Of a stretch of DNA of 64,000 bases, positions 35,953 through 58,341 are shown piece after piece (position 1 is the first letter of the stretch; each line of letters opens with the position of its first letter). Source of the DNA: Amycolatopsis nigrescens CSC17Ta-90 (lineage in GTDB: Bacteria; Actinomycetota; Actinomycetes; Mycobacteriales; Pseudonocardiaceae); the NCBI RefSeq assembly GCF_000384315.1, contig NZ_ARVW01000001.1:8229001-8293000 (forward strand), read 5' to 3'. The position numbers and the translations under genes are program-made. The notes under the pieces were generated by a model that had not been told where the DNA came from, did not search any database, and worked only from the letters and a program-made list of their open reading frames with translations.

Positions 35953-35968
35953 CCGACCCGTTTCGTCC

Positions 35969-36015
35969 GTGAAGGGCCCCTTACCTACTTTGAAGGTAGG
36001 CAAGGGGCCCTTCAC
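35969..36015. terminator. Palindromic terminator after acnA (repeat-family copy B)
   Basis: This 47-nt near-perfect palindrome has a left arm beginning GTGAAGGGCCCCTT and a right arm ending AAGGGGCCCTTCAC, centred on G35992. It lies between the convergent acnA and mgtC genes, whose stop codons are 66 bp apart. It is 36/47 identical to the core of the palindrome at 15281-15327. Confidence 0.8.
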
Positions 36016-36018
36016 GGC

Positions 36019-36747
36019 TTATTCGGGAGTGCCGAGTTCCAGCGGTTCGCGGACCTGCCAGCGGACGCTGGTCACCGACGGCTCCAGGCTCAGCCTGCTC
36101 ACCGCCGACTCCATCTGCGCGTCGTCGCGCTGGTCGCCGACCAGCTCGGCCCGTACCTCCACCGAACCGGCGGCCGGCAGGTCCGTGCTCTGCACCGACA
36201 GCAGCCGGAAGTCGGTGCGAGTCAGCGACTGCACCAGCAGCGCCCGCACGTGCGCCTCGGTGTCGTCCTTGGTCACCGCGTGGAAGTTGTAGTGCGTCGG
36301 GGTTTCGTCGCCGGTGTCCGGGCGGCGGTCCACCGCGCGGCCGAGCGCCCGCAGCGCGACGTTCACCCCGACGACGACCACCGTGCCGGCACCGGCGACC
36401 TGGTACAGCCCGGCGCCGGACAGCGCGCCGACGGCGGCCGAGCACCACAGCGTGGCCGCCGTGTTCAGGCCGCGCACGCTCAGCCCGTCCCGCAGGATCA
36501 CCCCGGCGCCGAGGAAACCGATCCCGGAAACGATCTGCGCGGCGACCCTGGTCGGGTCCGCGTCCCCGCTGCCGGACAGCCCGCCGAACCCGTGCGCGGA
36601 AAGCAGCACGAACAGGGTGGAACCGATCGCGACCAGCGCGTTGGTCCGCAGACCCGCCATCCTGGCCCGGTACTGGCGTTCGAAACCGATCACCGCACCG
36701 AGGCCGACTCCGCTGCCGATCCTGAGCAGCATCTCCAAAGTGGTCAT
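36019..36747 (-). CDS. mgtC: MgtC/SapB-family membrane protein
   Basis: The 242-residue protein has the MgtC N-terminal membrane domain with about four helices: LRIGSGVGLGAVIGFERQYR, GLRTNALVAIGSTLFVLLSA, VSGIGFLGAGVILRDG and LNTAATLWCSAAVGAL. A C-terminal cytoplasmic ACT-like domain follows (about 150-242). Members are induced by Mg2+ starvation and affect ATP synthase or phosphate homeostasis. ATG 36747 has AAAGG 9 nt upstream; the longer in-frame extension covers the leader and is not membrane-like. The leader holds a small ORF and an intrinsic terminator. Confidence 0.9.
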   Translation of the reverse strand: MTTLEMLLRIGSGVGLGAVIGFERQYRARMAGLRTNALVAIGSTLFVLLSAHGFGGLSGSGDADPTRVAAQIVSGIGFLGAGVILRDGLSVRGLNTAATLWCSAAVGALSGAGLYQVAGAGTVVVVGVNVALRALGRAVDRRPDTGDETPTHYNFHAVTKDDTEAHVRALLVQSLTRTDFRLLSVQSTDLPAAGSVEVRAELVGDQRDDAQMESAVSRLSLEPSVTSVRWQVREPLELGTPE

Positions 36748-36807
36748 GATCTGGCCTTTCCGGCTTGCGCACACAGTGCTTCGGCCAGACAGGTCGAATC
36801 GACCGGG

Positions 36808-36835
36808 AAAAACCGTCCGCGACCGGGCGCGGCGG
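36808..36835 (-). terminator. Intrinsic terminator (attenuator) in the mgtC leader
   Basis: Read on the minus strand, CCGCCGCG, loop CCCGGT and CGCGGACGG form an 8-bp GC stem with one bulged A, followed immediately by TTTTT (36812-36808). This is a textbook Rho-independent terminator, and T5 tracts are rare in this genome. It lies 60 nt upstream of the mgtC start and 12 nt after the stop of a 24-codon ORF. A competing stem GGTTC/GAACC would cover its first two bases. Confidence 0.75.
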
Positions 36836-36847
36836 TTCAGGCGAGTG

Positions 36848-36922
36848 CTATCGCGAGCGGAACCCTGCGCGGGCGGCGGTGAGACGGCTTCTTCCGGTCG
36901 TCTCGGGACTGTCCTCCGGCAT
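36848..36922 (-). CDS. Candidate leader peptide upstream of mgtC
   Basis: This is a 24-codon ORF with ATG start 10 nt after AGAGGAGG, the strongest ribosome-binding site in the area, and a TAG stop. The peptide begins MPEDSPETTG and ends RAGFRSR. The acidic/proline start resembles, from memory, the EPDP segment of enterobacterial MgtL, whose translation is unstable at low Mg2+. The ORF ends just before an intrinsic terminator in the same leader. It is out of frame with mgtC, and no independent function is implied. Confidence 0.6.
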   Translation of the reverse strand: MPEDSPETTGRSRLTAARAGFRSR

Positions 36923-36980
36923 GTGCCGCTCACCTCCTCTTGGTAATGGCGATTCCCGCGACATGCTACCCGTCACGAGC

Positions 36981-37026
36981 GTCGTGAGTGGAAAGTGTTG
37001 CCAGGGCAACACTTTCCACTCACGAC
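36981..37026. terminator. 22-bp-arm palindrome between S33 peptidase and mgtC genes
   Basis: Perfect arms (36981-37002 beginning GTCGTGAGTGGAAAGTGTTG, and 37005-37026) flank a 2-nt AG centre. The element lies just after the stop of the S33 peptidase gene (37040) and before the mgtC promoter region on the same strand, so it should insulate mgtC. No U-tract is present. It belongs to a different sequence family from the other two palindromes. Confidence 0.75.
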
Positions 37027-58095: not shown

Positions 58096-58302
58096 TGTCC
58101 GTGCCTCGTGACCGAGGCGCCTGAGAGGTTCACCCGTGTGTTGAGCCGGGCTTGCACCTTCGGCGGGGCCACCGGGTGGTCACCCGGCAGCCCGCTTTCC
58201 AGAGGCGTCTCACCCGCGCGGTCCTTTGTGCCTGAGAGGTTCCGGGGAGGACTTGCTCCTTCGGCGCCGAGCTCATTGTGGTGGCTCGGACTCTCCCGCG
58301 CG
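58083..58302 (-). ncRNA. Tandem glycine riboswitch
   Basis: Two aptamers are visible on the minus strand. Aptamer I (about 58302-58195) has GGGAGAG, GCGCCGAAGGAGCAA, GGAACCTCTCAGGC and ends GCCTCTGGAAAG. Aptamer II (about 58194-58083) has GCCGAAGGTGCAAGCC, GGTGAACCTCTCAGGC and ends GGACAGAGTGGGGAGG. These are the diagnostic glycine-aptamer core motifs, repeated, directly upstream of gcvP. Glycine binding should turn on glycine cleavage. Confidence 0.95.
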
Positions 58303-58341
58303 GGTTCGGCGACTACATCGGTGAGCCTACCCTGAGCCCCG

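Follow-up and report, generated by a model that had tools for sequence, protein, structure and literature searches.

The mgtC gene in the 64,000-nucleotide stretch of Amycolatopsis nigrescens DNA analysed here (hereafter the window) appears to be preceded by a conserved cis-acting leader of Mg2+-transport genes, built around a short upstream open reading frame (uORF) whose start could pair, as one of two alternative folds, with a box close to mgtC. We place the probability of this reading, which draws on sequence comparison, at roughly 0.7, and its parts carry different weight: that the uORF is conserved and regulatory is very probable, a response of the leader to Mg2+ is reasonably probable, and the specific switch between the two boxes described below is doubtful. 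The initial annotation had proposed a Mg2+-linked leader peptide before mgtC, an idea that is well supported by the comparisons reported here, in which a leader uORF whose start contains proline and is usually acidic is conserved before mgtC and, in relatives, also before mgtA and corA. Since the conserved frame precedes mgtC and relatives place it before these other magnesium-transport genes too, the uORF is probably a switch for mgtC and its counterparts and is likely to have a Mg2+ role. This would extend uORF control of Mg2+ uptake beyond Enterobacteria and mycobacterial M-boxes to another large actinobacterial group, and the motif offers an easy means of annotating small ORFs that might escape automatic annotation. 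Among open-licence PMC papers, a scope that makes this a weak negative, we found no published description of the uORF, only work on the mycobacterial M-box and on enterobacterial leaders.

The mgtC leader and its reading frame

The leader and mgtC lie on the minus strand. The mgtC coding sequence, stop codon included, spans 36019..36747, with its start and stop verified; an ATG stands at 36747, where the initial annotation had placed the gene, and the product matches Pfam MgtC (127.3 bits) and MgtC_SapB_C (92.1 bits). The leader ORF reported there was likewise borne out in coordinates, length and stop. It comprises 24 codons plus stop at 36848..36922 (MPEDSPETTGRSRLTAARAGFRSR; ATG at 36922-36920, TAG at 36850-36848), is conserved in relatives, and follows a Shine-Dalgarno sequence, AGGAGG, at 36933..36938, where the overlapping GAGGTGA is invariant in an alignment of 34 leaders. 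The Shine-Dalgarno sequence, the start and uORF codons 1-5 together form a conserved box A, GAGGTGAGCGGCACATGCCGGAGGACAGT (36908..36936), while CTCACCGCC within the uORF (36875..36883) pairs with the uORF Shine-Dalgarno segment GGAGGTGAG (36937-36929) at 8 of 9 positions. A second conserved element, box B (CTGTCTGGC, 36784..36792), lies 5' of mgtC, and GCCGG at 36760..36764 forms the 3' arm of a hairpin, H3, beside the mgtC ribosome-binding site.

The gene upstream of the leader encodes an alpha/beta hydrolase. The position of a -10-like hexamer, TAGCAT (36963..36968, minus strand), would put the transcript start near 36956. Genus leaders commonly carry TANNNT, which lies 25-60 nt 5' of GAGGTGA, and thus upstream of the uORF, in 53 of 54 of them, so that a transcription start 3' of 36808 seems unlikely. 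In many genus leaders (L137 and L010 among them) a palindrome-like GTTGATCAAC, perhaps a regulator site, follows the -10-like box near the expected transcript start; the window lacks it. The mgtC frame in the window is open as far as a GTG at 36933. An N-terminal extension of MgtC was rejected on two grounds: the upstream open stretch varies widely in relatives, and the conserved ATG sits in a frame other than that of mgtC.

To judge from its conservation, the uORF looks translated. All 36 leaders tested have a stop in the uORF frame after 16-36 codons, against 8 of 36 for frame +1 and 3 of 36 for frame +2, in a test that used hand-chosen leaders (36 of 89) and a length window set after the lengths had been seen, and in which short sequences censor the other frames. 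The 89-leader set may include near-duplicates (L039 and L265 share one peptide). The pattern behind the 73 leaders of the family search described below requires P2, D4 and S5, so peptide conservation can be counted solely in leaders found via MgtC without the uORF pattern. In these 65 leaders Pro2 is kept throughout, Asp4 in 60 (Gly otherwise) and Ser5 in 63 (Asn otherwise), and positions 2-5 hold two acidic residues in 34, one in 29 and none in 2. The acidic/proline start stressed by the initial annotation is therefore upheld in its proline and weakened in its acidic part, two acidic residues being present in just 34 of 65. In the window peptide, Pro occupies positions 2 and 6 and Glu position 7. 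Moreover, leaders that lack box B still retain box A, an observation in favour of constraint on the beginning of the peptide. An Arg/Lys-rich uORF end was rejected as a signal because it is not frame-specific: among the 712 residues of the last eight codons, Arg/Lys occurs 134 times in the uORF frame, 65 times in frame +1 and 149 times in frame +2.

These patterns also bear on whether the uORF product is itself a functional small protein, for example a partner of MgtC. The first five residues are kept across families, and Ser5 is encoded by TCG rather than AGT at two Nocardia loci; however, residues from 6 onward vary freely and the length ranges from 16 to 36, and we regard a small protein as improbable.

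The initial annotation had the leader peptide drive an attenuator ending in an intrinsic terminator. The GC stem with a bulged A and T5 exists as it described (36808..36838, minus strand), with an all-GC 8-bp core, the bulge at 36816 and T5 at 36812-36808. However, a terminator scan found a single site in the region, where shuffles gave 1.5 (sd 1.0), the hairpin has a folding z-score of -1.33 with 20 of 200 shuffles equally stable, and 3 of the 5 Ts are paired inside the predicted stem. By the criteria of the scan, a terminator-type site occurs in 4 of 89 homologous leaders including that of the window (any T5 in 5 of 89), and no conserved stem with a free U-tract was found between uORF and gene among the 89. 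The comparison across relatives that the initial annotation had called for thus found the ORF conserved and the T-tract hairpin not. A terminator as the core of the leader was rejected, being at chance level and unconserved, and attenuation of this intrinsic kind is very improbable.

Distribution of the uORF among Mg2+-transport loci

Members of the uORF family start with [M/V]-P-x-(D/G)-(S/N) behind a strong Shine-Dalgarno sequence, and in genus leaders this start forms part of a near-invariant DNA block upstream of mgtC, GCGAGGTGAGCGGCACATGCCxGxxGACAGT. At four Amycolatopsis loci (L035, L049, L062 and L106) the leader is the same as that of the window. For the genus sample, 76 of 80 genomes had an MgtC match, and 70 loci were taken at E<=3.1e-61, with the split second copy of G006, a fragment in G008 and paralogs of roughly 50% identity excluded and G040 added later. 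Among these loci, fetched by MgtC protein similarity, the block lies directly before mgtC in 54 of 70, and the uORF is present in all 54 loci having mgtC first, a count independent of the uORF pattern. In the remaining 16, mgtC is preceded by another gene: in one (G004) the block heads the operon, and in the other 15 a P-type ATPase frame bearing a DKTGT motif stands ahead of mgtC, and a second uORF class in turn stands ahead of the ATPase. This second class, VTGEGSS and similar (once MTSDGSS), has 18-22 codons and lies 5' of ATPase-mgtC operons (L211 and other mgtA loci); its pattern occurs in 22 of 390 family genomes, all 15 ATPase-mgtC genomes among them.

When the same 390 family genomes were searched with the pattern of the first class, 76 had matches, and a reversed control pattern had none. 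The matches in G129, G130 and G168 are chance; all 73 leader-type matches lie at Mg2+-transport loci, 69 of them directly before mgtC. In G004, G216 and G218 the order is uORF, P-type ATPase, mgtC, as in mgtA(-mgtC) operons, and the three ATPases exceed the TIGR01524 Mg2+-ATPase cut-off. In G376 the uORF is followed by short frames, and the first gene that could be recognised there, about 0.8 kb further along, is corA. A sequence-only model, R1, the search filters of which lose weak matches, had matches at E<=0.01 in 3 of 394 genomes at class level and 24 of 397 at order level, and it added leaders in G211 and G235 (before mgtC) and in G770 (before a small frame, then corA). The CorA proteins of G376 and G770 score 134.7 and 132.6 bits against Pfam, and a CorA-like frame in G004 falls below the Pfam cut-off (20.6 vs 27 bits). 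Outside the genus, eight R1 loci were examined (L248, L250 and L251 being left out of the reading); L228, L242 and L244 are leaders, and L229, L245, L246, L247 and L249 were judged chance by eye. A loose order-level pattern matched 4 of 338 genomes: that of the window, G702 and G942, which have MPDDS leaders, and G130, again by chance. Between the leader and corA, small frames without a Pfam match (L210:931-1185 and L228:1660-1965) share the stretch PNLERQ, although they come from two different families.

A cross-family scan for a Shine-Dalgarno sequence plus a short ORF, without any residue requirement, found MPDDS, VPDDS or MPDGS uORFs before mgtC at 6 of 6 Tsukamurella loci and VPDDS, MPGGN or VPDGS uORFs at 5 of 6 Nocardia loci, and no such uORF at the Streptomyces, Microbacterium, Rhodococcus, Nonomuraea and other actinobacterial loci that it covered. 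Of the 13 leaders of Nocardia/Tsukamurella type, 12 have an M-box riboswitch (RF00380), an element that controls the same gene families, upstream of the uORF (105.8-123.7 bits); these 13 loci are the 6 from Tsukamurella, the 5 from Nocardia and the 2 MPDDS leaders of the loose order-level pattern. The M-box is absent at L033 and at 7 other loci in the same scan, as well as from the scanned leaders of the window's family, and neither the window leader nor the whole window genome has a match at gathering score. More broadly, Rfam gave no family at gathering score for the family leaders and the M-box alone for the Nocardia/Tsukamurella type; four sub-threshold matches in leaders belong to unrelated families.

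The pairing of M-box and uORF in Nocardia and Tsukamurella, set against the uORF alone in the window's family, provides a natural contrast for asking whether a ribosome on a short ORF could replace a Mg2+ riboswitch. Tentatively, the M-P-x-D-S uORF of that family may itself be the Mg2+ sensor, an ancestral M-box plus uORF having lost its M-box and a ribosome on the uORF start having taken over; we hold this to be possible, with the odds against it. If true, it would amount to a ribosome-based Mg2+ switch that is independent of the enterobacterial leaders and common to mgtC, mgtA and corA operons.

Candidate pairings and proposed control of mgtC expression

In Amycolatopsis-type leaders the box CTGTCYGGC precedes the mgtC start, and its two parts can pair differently: CTGTCY with xGACAG at the start of the uORF, YGGC with GCCx next to the ribosome-binding site of mgtC. 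In the window, CTGTCT of box B can pair with GGACAG of the uORF (36914-36909) and CTGGC with GCCGG (36764-36760), each with one G-U. Three sites vary in a way that may fit two mutually exclusive pairings: in the 54 readable of 73 leaders their letters read G/C/G in 30, A/T/A in 21, A/T/G in 2 and G/T/G in 1, which is the window, and the A/C combination occurs in 0 of 54. This covariation is suggestive only, because few changes underlie it; on a tree of 53 rows (G004 and G072 skipped) there are 2-3 changes per letter and one independent pair on well-supported branches, without significance.

The arrangement is also confined to part of the family. Of the 73 leaders, 18 lack box B or carry an altered form of it (those of Lentzea type, G004, G072, G216, G218 and G376), and Lentzea-type leaders fold differently, with the mgtC start in a long hairpin and the uORF stop in its 5' arm. 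The switch between box A and box B is therefore not general; the shared element is the uORF, and the details of switching differ by clade. Among the 73 leaders, that of G065 carries CTGTTC at box B. In L155 (G003) the segment separating the uORF stop from box B is longer by about 150 nt, which include a long inverted repeat, yet both boxes are intact.

An RNAalifold consensus structure for 34 leaders was rejected, as it had 6 pairs and no two-sided change. Among 28 representatives, pairing between the uORF Shine-Dalgarno sequence and the uORF body is better than in shuffles (p<=0.05) in 10, with a median p of 0.08 and a window p of 0.055; for pairing between the mgtC start region and the leader the number is 7 of 28 (median p 0.22). 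When a ribosome-sized unpaired footprint was placed on uORF codons 1-6, the mgtC start became harder to open in 40 of 53 leaders and easier in 5, counts that come from related and not independent sequences. The median rise in opening cost was 1.7 kcal/mol, and the window went from 8.8 to 11.9. A footprint at the uORF stop gave no trend (23 easier vs 18 harder of 52 leaders). With a sliding footprint, closing occurred at offsets -18 to +12 and opening near the uORF end, where box B gets covered, and part of this late opening is the covering of box B itself. These runs excluded G004 and G003, and the sliding one also G072.

The conservation of boxes A and B at the nucleotide level, which for box A extends 5' of the start codon, might suggest that the leader is a Mg2+-binding RNA element and the ORF within it incidental. 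The frame test, however, favours the uORF frame (36/36 vs 8 and 3), the consensus fold is weak, no Rfam family was recovered, and box A persists where box B is missing, all of which make an RNA element of this kind quite unlikely.

Under the reading we prefer, that of a regulatory uORF, translation of the uORF would set expression of the downstream gene. In the proposed Amycolatopsis form, xGACAG of the uORF start and the GCCxG arm would be rival partners of box B CTGTCYGGC. With a ribosome on the first uORF codons, box B would be available for the hairpin beside the mgtC start, the predicted OFF state; early drop-off or poor initiation, expected at low Mg2+, would let the uORF start re-pair with box B and so ease mgtC translation, the predicted ON state. 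The direction of the response to Mg2+ in this scheme is taken by analogy from MgtL.

Translation of the uORF, or its failure, could instead expose a C-rich stretch to Rho and so attenuate transcription. Several lineages have a linker 3' of the uORF stop that is rich in C and T and poor in G (10 C, 2 G and 10 T in G042; 12 C, 2 G and 8 T in G044), and Rho termination is reported, in the excerpted texts of the two sources, for M. tuberculosis M-box leaders (PMC12810186) and for mgtL (PMC11282234). Yet the window linker has 16 G beside its 23 C, and many linkers are just 14-22 nt long, so that we consider Rho-dependent attenuation unlikely.

Related Mg2+ leaders and neighbouring features

One feature of the enterobacterial mgtL/mgtQ class, a short uORF before a Mg2+-transport gene, is found here as well. 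Salmonella mgtQ, as described in the excerpted text of PMC8092293, is an 8-codon uORF before mgtB, between mgtC and mgtB. It resembles the window leader in being short with acidic residues near its start, and resembles the proposed switch in that alternative stem-loops, one of them overlapping the uORF, mask or free the ribosome-binding site of the transporter gene. In mgtQ, however, ribosome occupancy frees the site, whereas folding here predicts the opposite sign (PMC8092293). MgtL, the mgtA leader peptide, shares an acidic/proline start before a Mg2+ transporter gene and, as in our model, translation corresponds to OFF and early drop-off to ON; it differs in its EPDP motif, the constant feature here being Pro2 with one or two acidic residues, and it relies on Rho (PMC11282234, in the sections at hand).

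The closest actinobacterial parallel we can draw is the M-box with uORF2/Rv1805A before the pe20-mgtC operon of M. tuberculosis, likewise a Mg2+ leader with a conserved uORF, translated in that case, and its order of M-box, uORF and mgtC is that of Nocardia and Tsukamurella (PMC12810186, from the available part of the text). The uORF2 peptide is called mycobacteria-specific there, with a conserved Pro7. By that description it differs from the family reported here, in which Pro2 is invariant and the window peptide has Glu7, and it has an upstream M-box, in contrast to the window genome, which has none (PMC12810186).

Several features near the leader or elsewhere in these genomes were recorded in passing. 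A perfect 22-bp hairpin, GTCGTGAGTGGAAAGTGTTGCC, separates the mgtC leader from the hydrolase gene at 36981-37026. With up to 3 mismatches allowed, its arm has 183 + 190 matches across the window genome, frequently in facing pairs; the hairpin is therefore one of a family of dispersed palindromic repeats rather than a component of the leader. A long inverted repeat, GTGAAGGGCCCCTT...AAGGGGCCCTTCAC, at 35965-36015 separates the convergent ends of mgtC and an aconitase gene and is probably a bidirectional terminator or another repeat. The window genome contains a second MgtC-like gene (G000:C1:6487584-6487973), 48% identical over residues 10-133, around which no Rfam match was found. In G065, three further in-line MgtC C-terminal matches (residues 164-234) follow mgtC at G065:C55:422227-422850, as if repeated. 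Finally, the window holds a glycine riboswitch on the minus strand at 58209-58308, which scores 66.6 bits vs a cut-off of 32.
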